NCBI GenBank assembly: GCA_006503475.1
Contig: RSEH01000164.1
Location: 1 to 64,000, forward strand
Length of the DNA stretch: 64,000 bases
From: Stentor roeselii
Lineage: Eukaryota > Ciliophora > Heterotrichea > Heterotrichida > Stentoridae
Reading direction: 5' to 3'
The number at the start of each line of letters is the position of its first letter. The first letter of the stretch is position 1. The translations under genes were made by a program, and so were the position numbers. Positions 36,573 to 60,919 of the stretch are shown here, one piece after another. The notes below the pieces were generated by a model. It searched no databases, had not been told where the DNA came from, and was given only the letters and a program-made list of their open reading frames with translations.

Positions 36573-38714
36573 TCATCTACTCTTTCCTCTAAAATAATCT
36601 CCAGTTTCATAAATCATCCGATAAATGGGACTAGAACAAGTAATGCAATCACAAAAATGACTTTTCTTCAAATTATAAGCAGCAACATGAAAAATTTCCG
36701 TGATTTTCAAGATATCCGAGCTAGACGAGACATTATTCAAAGGATTGAGTGGGTCAACAACAACAAGTCTCATAAAATCAAAAAAATTCTCACTTTTCAA
36801 ATGAGTCTCACCAGCCGGGTCCTTCGTAACAATAGGTGCAAAATAAACCTCCTGATTCAAATAAAACTCAAAAAATCCTTTCAAAGTTTCAAACAAATCA
36901 CTCTTAACTTCAAAATCATTCCTTTTCTGCACAAAACTAGCGACCATTAAAAACAAAGAATAACTTCCAAGTCCTCCAGTATAAGGTTCTTTGCAATCGC
37001 AAACTGAAAACAAATGTTTTAAAACCAGAAAAACAGGCCGAATCAATCGCGACTGATCCAAAAGTCTTGAAACAAGTTCCAAACACCTGAGGCCCGCATG
37101 ATTCGAGTCGTTGACAGTGATGTCGATTTGGACATGTGCGCCGTTCAGCTCTGCCTTGGCCTTGATGACAGGAATGAAAGCTGTGTTAATGAAAATAGAA
37201 GAGACTATAAACGGCTGGTCTTTCAGTAATTTTTCAATCATTCGAAGAGTCTCGCGTTTTTCACATTCGGACTCTTTTATCACCATGTCGATGTCGCTTG
37301 AAGGGAGATGAAGACGAGTTGCGAAGCTTCCGTATATTTCAACAGTGCAACTGGGGAATCGAGTTTTTATCAGCGATTTTATTACATTTGTTATTTCGGA
37401 GTATGAAGGAAAAACGTCTTCTTGCCATTTGTCGAGTTCTTGAAGGAAGACTGAGATTTCGTCACGAGATGAACACCCTGAAGATGTTTGAACTGGTTTA
37501 AGATATGATAGTTTTAAAGGCTTTTTTCGGGAAATATCGGGTTTTGACCTTTCTTCCAGACGGTGACGGAGGGTTTCACAGTCGTTTCTATATCTTTTGT
37601 TATCGTTTTTAGAATTTACCAGCTGTTCTTTCAAACTTTCTACTTCTTTCAGCGCTTCTTCAAGACGGAAGATTAAAGCAGAGGATTCTGTTTGTTTTTT
37701 TTTTAACTTTTCCTTGTTTTCCTTGTCAATTTTCGCTAATTCTATCTCTTTTTTTCTGATTTCAGCATCTTTTTCAACTAAGATTTTTTTGCACTGTTGA
37801 AGGTTTTCAGTTAATTCTCGATTTTTTTTATTAATTTCTTGATTCGTTATTTTCAATTCTTGAATTTCTTTCGCATAGTCTTCAATAGTTTTTCGATTTT
37901 CAACAACAACATCTCTATTATAAGCAAGGTTAAACTCATAACAAGGTTTACAAATCCCAACAACAAGTATCTTTTTACAGATCTTACACAACGAAGAGTT
38001 TTCCAAATTTTCATGCAAAAAAACCGCAACATTTTCAGGTGCTTCAAAAAGTTCTTTCAAAGAGTCAGGTGCAAGATCAACCGGATTTTTTCCATCCACA
38101 TTAATTAACTTGCAATTCGCTTTTTTTTTAACAAGAAGTTCAATTCCAGCTTCAAACTTATTTTTCGCAGCGATATGCAAAGGTGTATTTTTTTCCTTAT
38201 TTTCCGCATTAACAAGTGCGCCGTATTCAATAAGTACTTCAATTGAATTAAGGTATCCCATTTCTGCTGCTTTATGAAGAGCGGTGTTGCCTTGCGAGTC
38301 ACTCACGTTGACTTTGGCTTTCTTTTCCAGTAAAAACTTGACCACGTCGACGTTGTCGCCATATCCGCTCTCAACAGCGTACATCAAAGCTGTTCGGCAG
38401 TCCTTGTCACGGTCGTCGACTGATGAGCCACAACTCACGAGAAGCTCTGCAAGTTGGATCTGGCCGAGTCTCGCTGCTGTCATCAAAAGACTCGTTCCTG
38501 AAGGGTCTTTGAAGTTCGGGTTACCTGAATGACGCAAAAGGTACTCGATACAGCGAAGATGGTCTGAAGTGCTTTGGGACTTTTTCACTGCTGAGGATAA
38601 ACTTTGGTTTATACTGGAAGAGTCGAACTGGTATAAAGATATCAACTCGCAAACGTCTTCGAAATCACCCTCGCTTGCAGCACGATTCAATAATGTGCTG
38701 GGCTCTGGATTCAT
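36573..38714 (-). CDS. Ankyrin-repeat / non-canonical poly(A) polymerase-like fusion
   Basis: 713 residues. Residues about 1-210 contain five to six ankyrin repeats (typical GNTALHKAAEMGY and NTPLHIAAKNK). A small Cys cluster follows (CKICKK, GICKPC at about 243-260), then a charged coiled coil at about 275-390. Residues 430-640 match Trf4/TUTase-type nucleotidyltransferases: GSFATRLHLPSSDIDMV with both catalytic Asp, a third Asp in VQIDITV, and GGLGSYSLFLMVASF. Such enzymes add A or U to RNA 3' ends. The active site looks intact. The stop is TGA. The divergent neighbour, 171 bases away, is the deadenylase CAF1. Confidence 0.8.
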   Translation of the reverse strand: MNPEPSTLLNRAASEGDFEDVCELISLYQFDSSSINQSLSSAVKKSQSTSDHLRCIEYLLRHSGNPNFKDPSGTSLLMTAARLGQIQLAELLVSCGSSVDDRDKDCRTALMYAVESGYGDNVDVVKFLLEKKAKVNVSDSQGNTALHKAAEMGYLNSIEVLIEYGALVNAENKEKNTPLHIAAKNKFEAGIELLVKKKANCKLINVDGKNPVDLAPDSLKELFEAPENVAVFLHENLENSSLCKICKKILVVGICKPCYEFNLAYNRDVVVENRKTIEDYAKEIQELKITNQEINKKNRELTENLQQCKKILVEKDAEIRKKEIELAKIDKENKEKLKKKQTESSALIFRLEEALKEVESLKEQLVNSKNDNKRYRNDCETLRHRLEERSKPDISRKKPLKLSYLKPVQTSSGCSSRDEISVFLQELDKWQEDVFPSYSEITNVIKSLIKTRFPSCTVEIYGSFATRLHLPSSDIDMVIKESECEKRETLRMIEKLLKDQPFIVSSIFINTAFIPVIKAKAELNGAHVQIDITVNDSNHAGLRCLELVSRLLDQSRLIRPVFLVLKHLFSVCDCKEPYTGGLGSYSLFLMVASFVQKRNDFEVKSDLFETLKGFFEFYLNQEVYFAPIVTKDPAGETHLKSENFFDFMRLVVVDPLNPLNNVSSSSDILKITEIFHVAAYNLKKSHFCDCITCSSPIYRMIYETGDYFRGKSR

Positions 38715-48270: not shown

Positions 48271-51200
48271 ATGTCTAGTCCTGACAATACCCGTGATTCT
48301 TTTTTGCAGTACGGCTGCCTGGTAACTTTAAGCTTCAAACAAAACCATTTCGCTCATTCTGACGGGTTCATTGATGATTCATTGTACTCAACCCATTCAG
48401 ACCACATTCAAGATTTTTCTCAAGCGGTCTTCCGAATTCTTCCTCAATGCGCACATACAACTCAGGATAAGTTAATAAAAGCAAGTATAAAACCTGAACT
48501 TAAACCCGACTCTAACTTTTCTACCTTTTCAGATATTTTCTCTTCAAGCGAAACAGCACTTCGAGATGAACTTAAAGAAAATCTTGAAAACTACGAAAAG
48601 AACAAAGGTGTATGTTTAAAGTTTGGAAGCATTGTTTATTTGCAACATGTCCAAAGTCACAGATTTTTGACAGTTATTCCGAATGAAGTCAGTTCTGCTG
48701 ATAAGGACAGTTTAAAGGTGTGTCTTGCGAACTTTCCCAATGATCAGTCCTACATCAGACTAGAGTCAAGTTACAACTTTCAGAAGGAGGGGGAAGGACT
48801 GATAAGAAAAGTCGATATGGTCATTCTTGAAGTGCTTTTGACGACAAAAACAGTGAGTATCTCAGCAAGTGAAAATAAAACTCTTGTACACTCAGATCTA
48901 ACAGAAACTCGAGAAGTGATCGGATGTCTTGACAGGCGGTCAAAATGGCAGATTAACCTTTATTTCCCAGTGAATCTGGAGGACAGTAAACTCATCAGCT
49001 GCGGGGAGTATATTAAGATGAGTCACTCTGAAGGCAAAGCAATTCTTGTCGGGTCTCAGAAAGGGTCACATGTTTATTTTCATACAAATCTTGATAATAA
49101 CAACGGAATCTGGGAAGTTGAAAGTGAAGATTTCACTACTGGAGGTTTTGTATTTTCAGAGAAAACTTATAGAATCAAACATCTTTCTAGTAGTCTTTAT
49201 TTGACTCTTGAGGTTAGCAAGTCTGGGGATTTTTTTGGAAGACTTGCAGAAAAAAATGATGAAAATAGCCTCTGGCGTTTCGAGCAGGTCCATAGCAAAA
49301 AGGTGAACTCGAAGATATACAGCGAGCAGTTCTACAGCCTTGTGAATGACAGATTAAATGTTAAAGTCCAAGCTTTAGAAAATATTGAAGTCAGCAATGT
49401 GATCATGCTCGGGTTTAAAGATGACTCAAGTGAAAGTTCTTATTTGAAAATTTTTAGAGTTGATTCGAATACTTTGTGGGAAGCACAGTTTACTAAAGGA
49501 TGCATTCCTCTTCTTAGCTCTTTGAATCATTTTATTTCGATATTCAGGAAGAATAAGAACCAGTTCGACTTTGCTAAGGTCAAGAAATTCAAAAGGAAAA
49601 TGGACATCACTGAGAAGTGCTTGAAAGATGTGAATGATTTCATTGAGAATAAAATGCAGAATAGGATCAGTGTTGGAAAACATTATGGAATTATTGATAA
49701 GGCAAGGCAGATGTCTATCAGGGAATTAGGTATTTTGGATATTTTAACTGAAGTACTTCAAAATACTTTCGTTGATGAGTTTTCTCTTGATAAACTTCAG
49801 GCGTTAACAAGCAGTGGTGATAGTTCTTCGAATAGAGAAGTAGAAAACAATGAGCAGGGAGATTCTTTCAAGGACTTTCAGATTAGTTTGTTTTTAATGC
49901 TGAAAAATATGACAAATTGCATTTATCTGGTCATTTCAGCTGCTTGTGTCGATAACTTGGAGAACCAAACTTATGTCTTTAAGTTCTTTAAAACCTTTCA
50001 AAAACATGCAGGGTACCATTTAGGAGCAACTAGATGTCTCACTGTTCTTCTCTCGAACAATGAAAATTTACTTTATAGACTTCATCGAAGTTTCAGTTTG
50101 AATCAATCGGAGAAGAACACGACAGTCATTGACTTTTATATTTCTTTGTTGAAGGTAACAGCTTTTTAGAAGTTTCATAAAGAACGAAAACCTCAGCTGG
50201 TTGAATTTTTAAGAGTTGTCTGTGAGTGTAATGAAATTGGAATTGCAGCTAGTCAAGAAAAAGTTCATGAAAATATGTTTTATATACCTGATTCTTATGA
50301 TAAGATTATTATTCCTACGAGTATTGATCCTGATAAAAAGACACTTAAGGTTTTATTACAACATGAGACAGGGGTTGGCGAAGCTTATTATGATTTCAAT
50401 AGTCTTTTTGAAGACGGTCAATTAAAAGATCACAAATCCGAACTAAACTACTTCTCTAAAACAATCGGCGTATTCTCATCACTATGCAAAGGCCGAAACT
50501 ACATCTGCAAGACCAGTATCAGCAACTGGTTCCCTCTCGAGCTGCTAATAACAAGTATCTGGAACAAAGAGCTAACTCTAGAAATCCGTGCGAATTTCTT
50601 AGAACTTTTGATATCAATGCACATCGATTTCATGCCAAGGTACTTTATCCAGAAGCCTGACCTTATCAGAACCCTCGAAATGCAAGGAGACTCGATATAT
50701 ATATCAAACTTCAGAGCAAGGCACAAGTTCAACGACAACGAGTCAGGATTCGAAATGCTCAGAAAGCTAAAAACCGATATCTGTGATCGAAGATACTCAA
50801 TCAGCAGCAATGCTTCAAAGAGAAACACGAGCAGGTCAGGGGAATTTATTTTGATAACAAATGATGAGATGGTCATGTTTGAACTCAAATGTGCTTTAAT
50901 AGAGCAGGTAAACAACGGTGAAGAGAGAAAGTTTGACGAATTTTATCTTCAGCTGCTTAAACTTTCACGTCTTTTCATACAGTTTGAAGTGATTACCATG
51001 GAAGTTAGTAGTTTAGGGGAAAGAAAGTGTTTTCTTTATAAAAGTGAAAATTTCAAAAATGATCTTATTGATATTTATAGACTTTTAAGAGGTATTCAAA
51101 CAATGTTTTTTGGGAATCAAATTGAAAAGATCTCTGGGAAGACTTTAGTTATGAAAAATCAAACACTTATCACGGAAAAAAGCCAAGCGACTGTCAGGAA

Positions 51201-54200
51201 GTCGAATCAAAAACTTCAGTTTGATATCTCAGAAGAGCCTTTTGCGAATTACTTGGAAGGTATTCAAAACTACCTTCAATACAAGGCACATATGAATGTA
51301 AAGTCAGAAGACGGAAATTCAGTTGAAATCAGGTGCAAATTGGAATACTGTAAAATAATCAACCTGCTTATCAACATGCGACAAGAGACAGTTTTAACAA
51401 ATCTTATAGAATCTAAGAATCAATTAAGCACTGATGATGAAATAGTGAGCTGGATGAATGCCAACATCAAAATCCCTAAAAAAAATGATAAAAACGACAG
51501 ACAAAGACAAGCAAGTAATAAAAATGGACCTATTTTTGACCCTTTTTCGAATTTATATGAGGACTCGGGAAGGGACTGGATTGAAGACTTGCTGAGAATG
51601 TTCAACTCGACAATAAACTATAAACTTAAAAGCGAGATCATTGGAATCATTTTAAGAATCTTCAGCCAAACACGAGATTTCATAAAAAACATAAAAAAAC
51701 TAAAAATAATGGAATCCCCGAATGACTCTGACCTGGTCCTTTGGTGCAAAGTCAGCATTTTAAACTTCAAAATCTTATCAGAGCAAAGTGAAATCATTTG
51801 TAAATACTGGATACAGAATTCAAGTATTTCAGCTAGAAACCTTGAAAAACTAGGAAATTTAATGGAACTTTTGGATAATTTCATCATGGTTATGAGAGAA
51901 GACTGCGAGTTAAAAGAGGGAGAATTGATCAGTTACAAAAATAAGATTCAACCTGCCAGGCAGATTATGTTGAAAAACTTGAAGTTCCATGTGTATGTAA
52001 CGAATATCATTAAGGACTGCATGTATATCCTTGAAGATATCTTTGATTATCAGAAAACTTTAAAAGAAAAAAAGGCAAAATCTCTTCTAGTTGATTTATT
52101 TAAGAAGTGTTATAAATGTCTACAGAAGTTTACATATGCCAACCCTGCCAATCAGCGGACTTTGTTTCCTTATCTCAATGTTTTCACTTCATATTTGAGG
52201 ATTCAACTAGGACAAATCGACTTACTTTGTGATATGTTCAGGGATAATGCTGATCTTTGCACTTTGCTCACTGAGAATACTTTACAACTGTTTATAAATT
52301 TAATTTTATCTGAAGGTAGACAAGGCGATTTCCTGAACTTCTTTAAAGTCGTCACAAAGGTCAAAGGTGTCGGAATCCAGCATATTCAGAGAATAATTCT
52401 GATGCTTCTTACCAATTCAGAACAAGAGAACCACCTTTGTTACAAAGGAAAAGATGGAAAATTCGAGTTTTCACAGAACCTTAACTATAACTCTACAAAC
52501 CCGTCATATATCGACCAACCAAATATTTATCACGCTAAACTCATCAGTGTACTCACGAAATGTGGAACTTCAGAAACAACTTTTTACTTCAACGCGAAAT
52601 GTCAAAAAATCATCCCCTTGTCAAACCTCATCGAAACCCTTTCAAAGCCTTTAGATTCAAGTGTCGAGGTTAAACTTCTTGATTTCTTAATTCAAATTTA
52701 CTTGAAATCGAATTCTAAAAGTGAAGAAAGTGAAATTTATTCTTTAAACCTCAGCAGAATTTTAGTTCTTAAAACTAATCAATTAAATCAAGCCTTGAAA
52801 AAAACAATCAGTCTTAAGTGTCTTAAAAAGTGGGTGGAAATTTTATTTCTTTATAAAAATAACAAGGTACTTAAAAAGGGTGACTATCATTCACAGAATA
52901 CTCTCACTGCCGATACCATTTCCTATCTCACTGCTCTTATCAACTACTTGAATCGTGAAAAAATCTTGAAAATTTCACATGAATTTCATCATCATTTAAA
53001 TGAACTTTGCACCCACTTTAACATCCAAAAACCTGAAAATATTGAAGTTGAAGAAGTATCTGAAGAGCCTTTAGTTTCCAGTTCTCAGGAAAGTACAGAG
53101 TGGGAAAAATTTCTGGAGAGATTGTTGAAAATTGATATGAAAAAGAAAATTAAAGAGGAAAGAAGAGAGTTTTTGAAGGCTATTCAACTTTGGACTGGCA
53201 CTGAGGGTGAGGGAGAAGGTGAAAATAAACAACTTATTGAAAGTTTTATTGAATTTTTGAGCAAAGCTAAGGTTTTGAAACCACCGATTCCAGTTCTTTA
53301 TCAGGTCATTAAGTTCCTATCTGAGTATATCTCTGAAAGTGATAAAAAGAAGAATAATCAGGATGGCTCTGAAATTGATACAAAAAAGGCGAATCAGGAT
53401 CATTTTAGAACATGCAGAATCATCCAGATTGTACTTGACTTGATGTGTGATAAAGAAGTTGATAGAAGGATTTTTTCAGTTCTTGTGAAATTTTGTGTGG
53501 CTTTATTGGATGGGGGAAATAATGACATGCAGCATGATTTTTACAGTTATTTTTCAATTTTCGCCTCGTCTGAGCATTTCTTTTCAGCTTTGCATTCAAT
53601 AATTGTTGATCATATTTCATTATTTACTTTACACAAGGAGATAAGGACATTGAATTATAAACTGAAAAAATCAAACAAACTTGTCAATGAAATAATAAAA
53701 CTTCTCCAGCTGTTCTGTGAAAATCATTTTGAACTACTTCAGAATTATATCAGAGTACAGGATAAGTCTCATAATAATCATGATTTGGTTGTTACTGTTA
53801 TAAGTCTTCTTCAAGAATTGATGAGAATGAAGAGGTATGATGACTTTTTAATTATGAGCCACTGCTTTGAGATGTTGACTGAATGCATACAGGGACCCTG
53901 TAGAAATAACCAAAAAGCGATAATTGAGAGCAAGTTTTTAGATATTGCAAGTGATCTTCTTTCGATTGATGAGAAATCAGAGAAACTTTATCCTTATGCT
54001 ACAATCAAAGACTCAAGTAAAGAAAATGAACCAATAAAATCCCCAGTCCAGCCAATCGAATTTCCAAAATCATTAAAATCCCCAGCTAAACAACCCGAGT
54101 CAATAAAACTCTTAGAATTATCAATGATCTCTCGACTAAAGTACAAATGCATGATAACCCTAATAGCCCTTCTAGAAGGTCAAACCGACAATTACATTCT

Positions 54201-56055
54201 AGTCAGAATGGCCAGAACATTCAACCTCCAAATTTTCCGTCAAAATCTGATAACCACTTACACATCTCATTCAGAAAACTTAAAATATAAAAAAGAGCTT
54301 TTCTACGATTTCACCAAAAAAAAGAACTCAGACCCCGGAAACGGAAAACTTTTAATTGAAGTCGGATTTTTTATCTACTTTTTACTGAAATATTTCTTCA
54401 ACATCAAAGACAAAGAAGTCGATAAACTTCTAGAAAATGACATTCCAGAATTTGTAGAACTTAGTGAAAAATTAAAAGAAGAATATTCAAAACCTCAGAC
54501 TACTACCAAGGTAAAATTAATGGACTTCGACCTGGAATCTGAAGGAAAAGATGTTTGCTTGATGAAAGCTTTGAAATTTTTCGAGGACAATACCGCGAAT
54601 GTCGAGGTAGTTTTTCAAGAAGTTCTTTGTGTTGCTTATTTCTGGTTACCTCCTGTTTGTCATCATTTGACTTATGAAACAATTCAAGACTTTCATAACC
54701 GGGTTGATAGGTCATCGGATAAGAAGAAAGTCGAGTATTTGGTGAGTCAAGCTGGGGAAATCATTGAGGACATGAGATATGAAGAGAAACTCAGCAATGC
54801 TTATGGATATAAACTGATAGGACAACATGTGAGAAAAGTCAAGTTTGTCGCCTTTTTGCTTAGCATTGTACTGAACATGTTGATTCTTTTGTCTTATAAC
54901 AGCTTTCAGGGAGACAGGTTCAATAAACCTTCACTCGGCATGTATGAATCAAACGACAGTGAAGAATTAAATAATGTGGAGACTGAAAATTTGATTCTCG
55001 GTCTTGGAGTCATTCAAGCGATTTTATCTGGACTTATTTTTTTCTTCTTTATCATCAAAACAGCACCTATGTTAGTCCTGCGACTTTGGAAGCAACAAGA
55101 GCAGAAAGACTCAGAAAGCCAGGCAGTTGACTCATCTTCAAAGTTCCACAAAATCATTCAGACGATTCTTTACACTTTGCTTAACTTTGACGTGGTTTAC
55201 CATTTTTTTTACTTCAGTTTTTCAATCCTTGCAATAACCCTTCACCCTTTTTACTACTCCGCACATCTACTTGACATTATGTATCGTTTTCCAAGTCTTC
55301 AAGGAGTGGTTAAATCAGTTGTAGATCCTTGGCGTCAGCTTTTACTAACTCTCGTATTTATCATAGTCATTGTTTATCTTTTTAGTGTCTGGGCTTATTT
55401 TCGACTACAAGATGATTTTATTTCTTTTGATTATCCGGAATATAAGGAACTCTGCAGTTCTTTGTTTTTTTGCTTTATTAATGTTTTTGATAAAGGAATA
55501 AAAAATTATGGAGGGGTCGGACTTTGGCTTGATTATATGAGCGCGCCTGTGCCAGGGACTGTTGATAAGGAAAGGTTTATTTTTGATAATATTTTCGTGG
55601 TTATTATTTGGTTTATTATGCTGAATATCGTTCAAGGCATCATTTATGTCACTTTTGCGAATATCAGGGAGCAGGATAAGAAAAATGAAGATGATTTGAA
55701 TAATAAATGTTTTATTTGTGGGAAGGAAAGGGAAATCGTTGAGAGAATCACTGAACAAACCTTTGCTTATCATCGGCTGATGGAGCATAATGAATGGAAC
55801 TATATACATTTCATTGCTTATTTAACTTTTAAAGAACCTACTGAGCACTCTGGCATTGAATCTCATGTTAACGCTTTGATTAAAAGCAAAAAAATCGACT
55901 GGATTCCACAACAACAGTGCCTCAGTTTCTCGGAGAAGGAAAAAAAAGAAGAAAATTTGGTGCAACTTCAAATCAATTATGCACAAGAAATGCTTTCAAA
56001 GTACCAGAGGGTGCTAAAGAGGATAAGAAAATCACTGGAAGGACAGAATAAATAG
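48271..56055 (+). CDS. ITPR: Inositol 1,4,5-trisphosphate receptor Ca2+ channel
   Basis: Exons 48271-50154 and 50170-56055 give about 2589 residues, close to animal IP3 receptors. The N-terminal ligand-binding beta-trefoil/MIR region (GEYIKMSHSEGKAILVG near 240) is followed by RIH-type helical repeats in the central part. The last 450 residues have about six membrane helices, a pore loop with YGGVG, and a final zinc-finger-like linker (CFICG...H...H) that is characteristic of the family. It releases Ca2+ from internal stores upon binding IP3. The usual GGGVGD filter is YGGVGL here. One intron joins the two halves; retention would stop after 632 codons. Confidence 0.95.
50155..50169 (+). other. 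15-base intron in the IP3 receptor
   Basis: Sequence GTAACAGCTTTTTAG. Position 10 is T, the only exception among the ten introns. Retention ends in TAG. Confidence 0.85.
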
Positions 56056-56091: not shown

Positions 56092-57180
56092 TTATTTTCT
56101 ATCTGGAACTTTGCATTTATGCCAAAAACTATCTTTTTTCAGGCAATTTCTACAGACTTTGTATTCTTTACAACAAATTCGAATTAGATTTTTTTTGCCG
56201 GCTTCTTGCCACATTGCTAGATTATTGCATTCCAAACAAAATTTTTGATTTTTTAAGATACATTCTTTGCACATGTAGTTTAACTTCTGAACAGAGAAAT
56301 CATTCATACATTCAATGCAGCAGGAATGTTCACAGAATAATTTAAAGCAATTTTTTTGTTTAGAACAAAAAGAGCAATTATCATAAAAATTGTTGTTATC
56401 CCTTTTTGTGTTCAAGATACAACTGAAGCATATTAGATTTTTACTTATACAACTAGTGCATCCATAATGTGCGCATTTCATTATCTCATTTTTTTCATGT
56501 TCTCCACAATTCTTACAGTAAAATTCATAAATTCTTTTAAAATGAGTTTCTTCACATTCATTACACAGTTTTTTATTTCTAATCTTTTTCAGATTTTCTT
56601 TCTTATGATTGCAAAAATCGCATTTTTCTAAAATTTTAACACCTTGTTTAGACCTGAAATTTTGACTATATGAATGGGTCAAGCACTCGCTACAAGGGGC
56701 ATCAAGGCATTCAACACAAAAATAATGTTTGCAATTCCCTTTAAAAGTTTCTCCAATAACTGAACATCTATCACAAACAGCTTCATTTTCTCGATTTTCT
56801 AGTTGTTTTGGTCTTTGAAGCGATATACTCCCTGAACCATTTTTCTTTTTACTTTCTTCTAATTGGCATCTTTTGCATTTTTTTGAAGAGTCGGGGATAC
56901 AATTAGGACAGCATTGAGTTGAACATGATTTACAGTGACTAGAACAAGACTCACAAATAGCCAGTCCACATCGGCATCTGTTTGATACTTTCCTAGTCTT
57001 ACAATTGTTGCAAATGAAGAAGTCTTCGAAGATAAAAACTTCTGATTTACAGAAAATGCAGGAAATTTCAGGGGCTTCGCCTGTGGCATGGTCAAGGCAG
57101 ACTTTGTGAAATCCGGAAAAGTTTATGTCGAAAATCCCCGGCTTTTCACATACAAGACACTTAGATTCACAGGAAGACAT
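56092..57180 (-). CDS. Cys-rich multi-zinc-cluster protein, 362 residues
   Basis: About 50 cysteines, mostly as CxxC pairs with interspersed His, arranged in successive zinc-binding modules from residue 8 to the end (for example CLVC, CIFC, CNNC, CRCG, CESC, CKSC, CNCIP, CERC, HYFC, CDFC, CKNC and later clusters). Some modules resemble RING or B-box halves, but none can be named confidently. Such proteins are often ubiquitin-pathway or scaffold factors. The gene is convergent with the IP3-receptor gene. Confidence 0.6.
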   Translation of the reverse strand: MSSCESKCLVCEKPGIFDINFSGFHKVCLDHATGEAPEISCIFCKSEVFIFEDFFICNNCKTRKVSNRCRCGLAICESCSSHCKSCSTQCCPNCIPDSSKKCKRCQLEESKKKNGSGSISLQRPKQLENRENEAVCDRCSVIGETFKGNCKHYFCVECLDAPCSECLTHSYSQNFRSKQGVKILEKCDFCNHKKENLKKIRNKKLCNECEETHFKRIYEFYCKNCGEHEKNEIMKCAHYGCTSCISKNLICFSCILNTKRDNNNFYDNCSFCSKQKNCFKLFCEHSCCIECMNDFSVQKLNYMCKECILKNQKFCLECNNLAMWQEAGKKNLIRICCKEYKVCRNCLKKDSFWHKCKVPDRK

Positions 57181-58306: not shown

Positions 58307-60919
58307 CTAAAGAAAATCGGAATCCCAGTCACATTCGTACTCGTTGCCTGTTGTTGCTAGTGGCTCGGCTTGGTCTTCTGAAAGAGACTCGAAGAATTTA
58401 CCTTCTGGGATGAACTCGGCGATCGAGTTTCGCCCGATTAGATCGTCCCAGTCTACTCCTAAAAACCATTCATGCCGTTTTATGTCGTCTGCAGTGCCTC
58501 TTTCAGTAGGGTCTTTACTCAGCAGTTTTTCAATAATACCTGAAGGTTTCTGAGACTCTTTGATAAAAATAGGGTATTTATGCGAATCATTCAGTATAAT
58601 CTGATAAATCTCATAAGGGTCTTCTTTTCCATATCCAAAAGGAACGACTCCAAAAAGCAGTTCAAAAATTGTGATACCCAAGCTCCAAAGGTCAGCTGAA
58701 AACGAGTACCCAAGGCCAATGATGACTTCAGGAGCGATATAAAAAGGATTTCCCAATATAGTAAAAGTGCGATTTTCTATCTTTTTCGCATTGGACAAGT
58801 CAGCCATTACAGGGTATCCAAAAGCATCAATAATGAAAGACTCTGGAGTGATTTCTCTATGAACGATGCTAGAATTATGTAAATATTCAAGACTCAGCAA
58901 AATCGCTGAGGCGAAAAACTTGGCTTGTTTCATGGTCAAAGCTGTTTTACTTTCAAGGTGATTGGAAAGTGAAGGTCCTTGAAGGTACTCACTGAGAAAG
59001 TAAACATTTTCCTTGTCTGTCAAAGTCTTTATCAAAGTGCTGATGAAAGGAAAGCTGCAGTCAAGGTGGATCTTTTTTTCTCTTTTTAACCTTTCGAGGA
59101 GGTCATATCGATCAATATCTTGTTTTTTGATAGCTTTCAAGGAATAGTTTAAATTGTTTTTCTGGTTCAAGACAATGAAAATCTCGGAAAAATTTCCTTC
59201 ACCGATTTTTTTTAATATTTTCAAGTCTTTTAATTCAGCATCTTTTTCTTGCATCGCGATTTTTTGTTTGAGGTAAAACAGAAACTTTTCATTGAGAAGA
59301 CTGAGAAAAACTTCTTTTTTAATCACCCAACACTCGCTTTTTTCTAAACTTTTCGCAGAAGCCGCTCGTTTTTCATTGAATAAAAAAGCTCGTTCTCCGA
59401 AGTAGTCATCTTTTTTTAATGAAGTTAAAGTCAAACCGTTTTTTTCTATTTGAATCGAGCCACTTTTAACGATATAAAAGTAGTCAGCATCGTTTCCTTC
59501 TTGAAAAACAAGTTCATTCTCTTCAAAGGTCCTGATTTCAACCATTCTAGAGAGTTCCTCCAGTTTATTTTCAGGAATGTAAGTTAAAAATAGAATTTTT
59601 GACATGTTTTTCAAGACTCTGTTACTTTCTAAGGTGTTTTGAAGAGGTGAAGCGAGTTCTTTTTCTAAGTCATTTCTTGAAATTTTGCATAAAATGCACT
59701 CAGAGCTATTCAAAGAAAGGTCATCATTTAAAAATTCTTGACTTTTGATAGTATCAAAAACTTTATAAATCACTGAAGAGTCCACTTCACTCACCTGTCC
59801 CCAAAGTACTAAATAAATGAACTTTGAAGGATAAATCTTGAATCTTCCTTCAAAGTTTTCAGTTGAAAACAAAGGTAGAAGGCGAGTGACCTGCAAGTTA
59901 GTAAGTTCTTTTAACACAGAGTCCCTAGCGAAGGCGATGCGAATAGCATTAAAATACAAAAATCCCTGAAGACGACTACCGAAGACCTTAATCAATGTAT
60001 TTTCAGTGAAACATAAAATTTTACATTTACTTGCTGCGAAGGCTGAGGCATTTCTAAGGACATTGTAAATCATTGAGATCTCTCCAAAGTACTCTCCTTT
60101 TCCCAGGGTGTTAATTTTTTCAGTACCTTTCATAATATTGACCTTTCCCGTTTTCACTATATACATAATCGAGTTCAAGTCTCCAGTCATAAAAATTCTC
60201 TCATTTTCTTCAAAAGACTCAGTAATCGCTGAGGCTAATAAAATCTCGAGCTTCGCTCTCGGAAGTGCTTTAAAAACTTCTAAACTCTGAAGAAATTCCT
60301 CGTTTTCTTTATATTTCAAACGAATTGATTCACTTATTGTTTCTTTAAACACATCTCGACCAAGTCCCCAAAGTCTTGTGCGATTCGCAGCTTTTGCAGT
60401 AGCCCTTCTTCCTGAGTTGTGAATCAAGGCAAGTTCTCCGAAGCAGTCTCCTCTTTCCATGAATTTGACGTGTTTCTGATTCACTATTATTTCGACTGAC
60501 CCACTCGCAATAATGAAAAAGTTAAACCCGGGGTCAGCCTGTTTGAATATAAATTCGTTTTTTTGAACAAGGTAGTAGTTCATTTGCATGATGATTTCTT
60601 TTAATGTAGTATCTTCTAGATCTTTGAAGAGAAAATGACTTCGAAGGGTTTGTTTTAATTCTGAGAGTTCTTCAGGGGATGGAGACTTTTTTAAGATTTC
60701 ACTTGTGAGGCAGTCTACGTCGCATTCGTGACGCTCGAAGGCATTTTGTTGTGGAAGAGTTGTGTGGGATAGACGAGCTTTTGCACCGATTGTCATTCCT
60801 TTCTTTAGCTCACTTAAAATACTCAAACGGATTTTTCGTTGGTCGTCTATGATTGCCAGAGATGAGGAAAAACCGTGGATTTTTACTTGTTTTTGCTTTT
60901 TTGATGGAATGCAGCCCAT
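58307..60919 (-). CDS. cGMP-dependent-kinase-like protein with degraded active site
   Basis: 870 residues. MGCIPSKK at the start fits N-myristoylation at Gly2 and palmitoylation at Cys3. Four cyclic-nucleotide-binding domains lie at about 95-205, 215-325, 335-430 (degenerate) and 445-555; A, B and D keep FGE and a following Arg (FGELALIHNSGRRATA, FGEISMIYN, FGERAFLFN). A kinase domain follows at about 566-830 with an intact Gly loop (GEGNFS) and Lys595. The catalytic loop reads HRE-I-T-P-E-S instead of HRD-L-K-P-E-N, with Glu689 for the catalytic Asp, and DFG is DLS. The fourfold cNBD layout with a dead third site is that of apicomplexan PKG. It is probably a pseudokinase or strongly impaired. 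Confidence 0.85.
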   Translation of the reverse strand: MGCIPSKKQKQVKIHGFSSSLAIIDDQRKIRLSILSELKKGMTIGAKARLSHTTLPQQNAFERHECDVDCLTSEILKKSPSPEELSELKQTLRSHFLFKDLEDTTLKEIIMQMNYYLVQKNEFIFKQADPGFNFFIIASGSVEIIVNQKHVKFMERGDCFGELALIHNSGRRATAKAANRTRLWGLGRDVFKETISESIRLKYKENEEFLQSLEVFKALPRAKLEILLASAITESFEENERIFMTGDLNSIMYIVKTGKVNIMKGTEKINTLGKGEYFGEISMIYNVLRNASAFAASKCKILCFTENTLIKVFGSRLQGFLYFNAIRIAFARDSVLKELTNLQVTRLLPLFSTENFEGRFKIYPSKFIYLVLWGQVSEVDSSVIYKVFDTIKSQEFLNDDLSLNSSECILCKISRNDLEKELASPLQNTLESNRVLKNMSKILFLTYIPENKLEELSRMVEIRTFEENELVFQEGNDADYFYIVKSGSIQIEKNGLTLTSLKKDDYFGERAFLFNEKRAASAKSLEKSECWVIKKEVFLSLLNEKFLFYLKQKIAMQEKDAELKDLKILKKIGEGNFSEIFIVLNQKNNLNYSLKAIKKQDIDRYDLLERLKREKKIHLDCSFPFISTLIKTLTDKENVYFLSEYLQGPSLSNHLESKTALTMKQAKFFASAILLSLEYLHNSSIVHREITPESFIIDAFGYPVMADLSNAKKIENRTFTILGNPFYIAPEVIIGLGYSFSADLWSLGITIFELLFGVVPFGYGKEDPYEIYQIILNDSHKYPIFIKESQKPSGIIEKLLSKDPTERGTADDIKRHEWFLGVDWDDLIGRNSIAEFIPEGKFFESLSEDQAEPLATTGNEYECDWDSDFL

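Follow-up and report, generated by a model that had tools for sequence, protein, structure and literature searches.

The PKG-like gene and its surroundings

The window, by which we mean the whole 64-kb stretch of DNA that was analysed, carries a gene for a PKG-like protein with four cyclic-nucleotide domains (CNBs) and an altered kinase domain (Table 1). Inside its frame no intron of 15-16 nt of the searched pattern was found. A model of the window protein matched PfPKG over the full length in a structural comparison (5dyk). Pfam scoring on the 870-aa protein gave three CNB stretches only, CNB-C being the degenerate domain. The preliminary description had proposed exactly this layout, i. e. 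four CNBs with a degenerate third one as in apicomplexan PKGs, and both Pfam and the structural match agree with it. The C-terminus ends in a hydrophobic motif of the WxxxF type that has been described for PKGs (PMC6628679). Sequence, model, orthologues and tree all give good support to the assignment of the window protein to the PKG-III (apicomplexan-type) architecture.

Table 1. Features of the pseudo-PKG gene; positions refer to the window, residues to the encoded protein
Feature	Position	Strand	Remark
Pseudo-PKG gene, 870 aa	58307..60919	-	open frame
MGC start, putative N-myristoylation/palmitoylation site	60911..60919	-	predicted from sequence
KKGMTI, residues 39-44, clade-specific N-terminal motif [KR]G[ML]T[IL]	60788..60805	-	
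CNB-A, residues 80-205	60305..60682	-	Glu162 and Arg171 of cassette kept; Arg172 replaces PKG Thr/Ser
CNB-B, residues 206-325	59945..60304	-	Glu280 and Arg289 kept; Asn290 replaces PKG Thr/Ser
CNB-C, residues 326-430, degenerate	59630..59944	-	within structural alignment to 5dyk
CNB-D, residues 431-560	59240..59629	-	Glu509 and Arg518 kept; Ala519 replaces PKG Thr/Ser
Pseudokinase domain, AGC-type, residues 566-822	58454..59224	-	Pfam PF00069 at 568-819; PDB matches
Degenerate catalytic loop HREITPES, residues 687-694	58838..58861	-	
DLS replacing DFG, residues 707-709	58793..58801	-	
Distal C-lobe from the P+1 loop on, residues 723-822	58454..58753	-	part of the kinase domain most identical within the clade
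WDSDF, residues 865-869, WxxxF hydrophobic motif of PKGs	58313..58327	-	

Elsewhere in the window, two adjoining frames on the forward strand (48271-56055) jointly resemble one calcium channel of the IP3-receptor/ryanodine-receptor type; a small intron or a frame change may divide what is perhaps a single gene. A frame on the reverse strand (36573-38714) combines ankyrin repeats with a palm domain like that of poly(A)/uridylyl transferases. Another reverse-strand frame (56092-57180; 362 aa) is rich in cysteines with many CxxC pairs and has no Pfam match at E 0.001. The Sin3 homologue in the window shares 62% identity with that of Stentor coeruleus and 53% with that of Blepharisma stoltei. Rfam at gathering scores and ARAGORN gave nothing in the 64-kb window, and the 14 NCBIfam models that appeared were all far below their cut-offs. 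A scan of a viral collection returned one pattern match and no relative. Among 103 and the best 120 of 211 homologue matches, mostly nameless and from word-limited searches of a database that includes Stentor proteins, none was named as a Stentor coeruleus PKG.

Lost and kept residues of the kinase domain

In the catalytic loop, Glu689 stands in place of the HRD Asp, Thr691 in place of the loop Lys and Ser694 in place of the loop Asn. Leu708-Ser709 replace Phe-Gly of the DFG motif, Ser578 replaces the third Gly of the Gly loop and Asn724 the P+1 Thr. Kept are the other two Gly of the loop, Lys595, Glu614, Asp707, Glu731 and Asp743. All these positions were assigned through their equivalents in PKA. 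The preliminary description had reported Glu689 for the catalytic Asp, loss of the loop Asn and retention of Lys595, and these three points were confirmed. Its statements on the two remaining motifs have to be narrowed: of the DFG motif only Phe-Gly is gone and the Asp persists, and the Gly loop, which was said to be kept, is so at two Gly but not at the third.

A second database record of the gene (P0002) differs from the window protein at 4 residues and is identical at the altered catalytic sites. Five orthologues with 43-71% identity likewise do not have the HRD Asp. Hence a read error is ruled out as the cause of the loss; the preliminary description had pointed out that a single-base error at the Asp codon would leave the other changes unexplained. 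By the criterion that at least one of the VAIK Lys, HRD Asp and DFG Asp is absent, the window protein is a pseudokinase; this assignment, made on sequence, is well supported.

The PKG family of the genome

Four PKG-like protein searches, in each of which 45-53 candidates were scored, found at least 58 genes of the four-CNB type in the 44.4-Mb assembly of 522 contigs (loci L001 and L009-L063), a number that is a lower bound. Of the 58, 45 are intact at 12 key kinase positions, and the other 13 differ in at least one of them. The preliminary description had suggested looking for relatives with an intact HRD, and these turned out to be the rule, since 54 of the genes keep the HRD Asp. It is absent in four: the window gene (E), L009 (G), L047 (G) and L054 (Y). 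One of the sequences (L020_0) is incomplete at its N-terminus, and three of the genes lie in a row on contig C391.

Five PKG genes carry one 15-nt GTA...TAG intron each, with A at position 10 in all five; this is the pattern described for Stentor introns (PMC9505925). The stop codons of 52 PKG frames are TAA (28), TAG (16) and TGA (8), two of the TAG (L036, L051) being in fact intronic. Introns, stop codons and the Sin3 identities together make a Stentor-like heterotrich ciliate the most likely host. Also in the genome are 34 open frames, 1879-2290 aa long, each with two adenylate/guanylate cyclase family matches (on contigs C55, C72, C111 and C391 among others). By their sequence, these frames imply a large cyclic-nucleotide system in the genome.

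A clade without the catalytic Asp

Nine distinct proteins make up the clade of the window protein, namely the window protein itself, P0003-P0007, L009, P0105 and P0106 (P0002 is the window gene again); the window protein and L009 come from one genome. The clade was recovered in a quick tree of 72 rows, made up of the 58 genes of the genome and 14 homologous proteins (SH-aLRT 100). It was also recovered, with support of 100/100 when the catalytic columns were omitted, in a more careful tree of 34 of these rows, which were chosen by hand and did not include P0002.

The HRD Asp, the loop Lys and the P+1 Thr are missing in all nine members, one of which has Ser at P+1. Among the 58 genome paralogues, window gene and L009 included, these three residues are present in 54, 51 and 48, respectively. 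At the HRD Asp position six clade members have E, and A, G and K occur once each. HRE as a conserved state is thereby ruled out; because Glu is only one of four states, the trait common to these sequences is the loss of Asp and not the gain of Glu. The loop Asn is lost in six of the nine, the DFG Asp and the first Gly in five each, and the equivalent of Lys595 is kept throughout. The losses of first Gly and DFG Asp weaken the idea of nucleotide binding as the conserved function.

Loss of the HRD Asp requires at least four changes on the 34-row tree. Joining all twelve rows without this Asp (the window clade, L047, L054 and PKG_21 of Blepharisma stoltei) into one clade was rejected with p-AU 5e-9, for a grouping named post hoc after the first tree had been seen.

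Identity within the kinase domain

Conservation was compared between the nine clade rows and 48 intact rows (45 of the genome, P0008, P0107 and P0110); of the 1128 intact pairs, 60 lay outside the binned identity range and do not enter the counts. In the clade, all 36 pairs have a distal C-lobe (723-822) whose identity exceeds that of the catalytic C-lobe part (643-722), and in all 36 it also exceeds that of the N-lobe; of the 1068 intact pairs, 66 show the first excess and 315 the second. These all-pair counts are not independent, and what they compare is identity rather than dN/dS. With path-disjoint pairs picked by hand, the distal part exceeds the catalytic part in 4 of 4 clade pairs and 2 of 15 intact pairs (Mann-Whitney p 2.6e-4), and the comparison with the N-lobe gives p 1.0e-3 (Mann-Whitney). 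The shift is a post hoc observation: the domain borders were fixed when it was first noticed on 18 pairs, and then kept. Outside the clade, the degenerate pair L040/L054 has the same shift (+10); it is absent from L044/L050 (-8) and L048/L060 (-1), two pairs that are partly degenerate.

Relative to the CNBs, too, the distal C-lobe is the more identical part. In the identity bins, the values are 57.6 vs 38.3, 66.3 vs 45.9 and 83.5 vs 73.5% for the clade. For intact pairs they are 46.9 vs 34.9, 54.1 vs 42.9 and 69.7 vs 62.4%, so that the distal C-lobe exceeds the CNBs there as well, by a smaller gap. The GHI subdomain of kinases has been described as a docking site (PMC3415842), and in PfPKG CNB-A and CNB-B contact the C-lobe (PMC6628679). 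Such contacts, rather than an outside partner, could be what preserves the distal C-lobe; its conserved face may be internal, external or both.

Ligand pockets and N-terminus

The cassette Glu and Arg are present in all nine clade members in CNB-A and CNB-D; in CNB-B the Glu is present in nine and the Arg in eight. The residue after the cassette Arg, which is linked to cGMP binding, is reported to be Thr in mammalian and Plasmodium PKGs and Ala in PfPKA-R (PMC12422582). Thr or Ser is found at this place in 47 of 57 (CNB-A), 51 of 58 (CNB-B) and 51 of 58 (CNB-D) genome paralogues, window gene and L009 included. In the clade the respective numbers are 0, 3 and 2 of nine, and the window protein has Thr/Ser in none of its three usable CNBs. 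The change also occurs in some paralogues outside the clade. Capping residues of CNB-D in the window protein are Arg510, Gln557 and Glu558 (Asp in PfPKG), with the Arg and the Gln each kept in eight of nine clade members. In PfPKG the capping residues are described as mattering mainly for cGMP affinity (PMC4412288). Judged from these residues, the window protein is likely to bind some cyclic nucleotide. A preference for cGMP is not likely; with the PKG Thr exchanged in every usable CNB, the nucleotide bound could be another one than cGMP. The protein may also respond to the nucleotide that it binds.

The MGC start recurs in P0003, P0004 and P0007, and in P0005 as listed it is found 12 residues in. 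MG occurs within the first 120 residues in 52 of the 58 PKG ORFs of the genome, where it need not be the start in each. Attachment of the window protein to membranes through this start would be plausible. Behind it, about 40 residues before CNB-A, follows KKGMTI. The corresponding pattern [KR]G[ML]T[IL], composed after the sequences had been viewed, lies 40-42 residues before CNB-A in all eight distinct clade members that have the region (P0006 starts downstream of it). It is present in nine rows, i. e. these eight proteins and P0002, and in none of the 62 rows outside the clade. Within the first 130 residues of 219 collected proteins, many of them unrelated kinases, it was likewise found in clade members only. 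The position resembles that of the autoinhibitory segment of PKGs, which KKGMTI could represent; a site for phosphorylation or for a partner is just as conceivable.

Possible role of the window protein

We would put at even chances the interpretation that the window protein is a membrane-attached cyclic-nucleotide sensor derived from a type III PKG, which acts as a ligand-gated docking scaffold without phosphotransfer. N-acylation would keep it membrane-bound. CNB-D, -B and -A would bind cGMP or, as the PKG Thr/Ser is gone, perhaps cAMP, and binding would drive a helix relay as proposed for PfPKG. The relay would free the distal C-lobe, and perhaps also the KKGMTI segment, for binding of a partner, which might be one of the active PKG paralogues or a protein that PKGs phosphorylate. 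In favour of this interpretation are the loss of HRD Asp, loop Lys and P+1 Thr throughout a fully supported clade, the identity peak in the distal C-lobe together with the docking role described for the GHI subdomain, the largely kept cassettes, the N-terminal motif confined to the clade, and the full-length match of the model to PfPKG. A limit on the scaffold interpretation is set by Lys595, Glu614 and Asp707, with which ATP binding or residual activity is possible. Further points against it are the C-lobe contacts inside PfPKG, the post hoc nature of the identity shift and its absence from two partly degenerate pairs, and the Thr/Ser that some clade members retain in CNB-B and CNB-D. The preliminary description had pictured a membrane-anchored pseudokinase responsive to cyclic nucleotides; sequence, model, orthologues and tree back the pseudokinase, whereas anchor and responsiveness keep the status of suggestions. 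It is rather doubtful that heterotrich ciliates possess a dedicated class of such proteins, in which a PKG has become a cyclic-nucleotide-gated, non-enzymatic membrane docking scaffold whose ligand has changed to cAMP or is mixed.

The target could also be the PKGs themselves, if the window protein were a dominant-negative or allosteric partner that pairs or competes with intact PKGs and thereby tunes them. The presence in the genome of 58 or more paralogues that share an architecture would be in line with this, as would the conserved distal C-lobe. However, PfPKG is reported to occur chiefly as a monomer, and in trans an active truncated PfPKG was not inhibited by the AIS of a dead full-length one (PMC6628679). 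We regard such a role as improbable.

Still less probable seems a buffer or decoy, whose CNBs hold the nucleotide while the kinase domain is a structural brace. The kept phosphate cassettes and the large cyclic-nucleotide system suggested by the 34 double-cyclase frames would suit a buffer, as would the excess of distal C-lobe over CNB identity in intact pairs. Yet this excess is wider in the clade.

Lower again we rank an atypical or weak active kinase, in which Glu689 together with Lys595, Glu614 and Asp707 supports phosphotransfer or another transfer. The Lys595 equivalent in nine of nine members, the Asp707 equivalent in four and the two Gly left in the loop of the window protein could be read in this way. 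Against it stand the losses of the loop Lys in all nine, of the loop Asn in six, of the DFG Asp in five and of the first Gly in five, the exchange of the HRD Asp for A, G or K in three of nine, and the lesser conservation of the catalytic half. For an assembly error or a decaying gene nothing was found to speak, and neither hardly needs to be considered, given the open frame of 870 aa, the agreement of P0002 at the altered sites and orthologues at 43-71% identity.

If the dedicated heterotrich class considered above exists, a receptor with the shape of a PKG would let a cyclic nucleotide switch the docking of proteins at the membrane without phosphorylation. The clade is a natural experiment, in which a four-CNB PKG is deprived of its output but retains sensor sites and distal C-lobe, next to 45 sequence-intact paralogues in one genome. 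It makes testable whether the PKG relay drives docking without catalysis. Pseudokinases in general have been studied in depth. Among titles and abstract openings in the literature, preprints lying outside the search, no paper on a PKG-family pseudokinase was found. A preprint on the Stentor kinome (Reiff and Marshall), cited in PMC9371601, may list PKG pseudokinases.

Comparison with known systems

PbCBP-O of Plasmodium has degenerate and usable CNBs side by side as the window protein does; it combines PKA-like with PKG-like pockets and binds both cAMP and cGMP (PMC12422582). Unlike for the window protein, no kinase domain is mentioned for PbCBP-O in the available part of that source; the likeness covers the CNBs. 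Plasmodium PKG (PKG-III alpha; 5dyk, 5dzc), compared without its N-terminus, differs from the window protein in having intact YRDLKPEN and DFG motifs, and in CNB-D it has Thr after the cassette Arg where the window protein has Ala519.

Several other CNB-kinases have changed catalytic motifs. P0202, P0204, P0205, P0207, P0209 and P0210 have HRNIKPEN and GFS for HRD and DFG; P0202, the only HRNIKPEN protein that was placed, falls far from the window clade in the 72-row quick tree. PKG_21 of Blepharisma stoltei (P0009), whose Gly loop is broken and which has HRN for HRD and DYG for DFG, is separate from the window clade as well; it is another likely pseudo-PKG. CNBs joined to a kinase domain without the catalytic Asp are also found in L047 (YRG) and L054 (LRY), both separate from the window clade, and in L009 (HRG, EMH), which is a member of it.

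The intact paralogues of the genome have the same size and domain order as the window protein. Unlike it, they mostly have YRDLKPEN, DFG and GTPHY, and in most pairs of them identity is higher in the catalytic part of the C-lobe than in the distal part, opposite to the clade.
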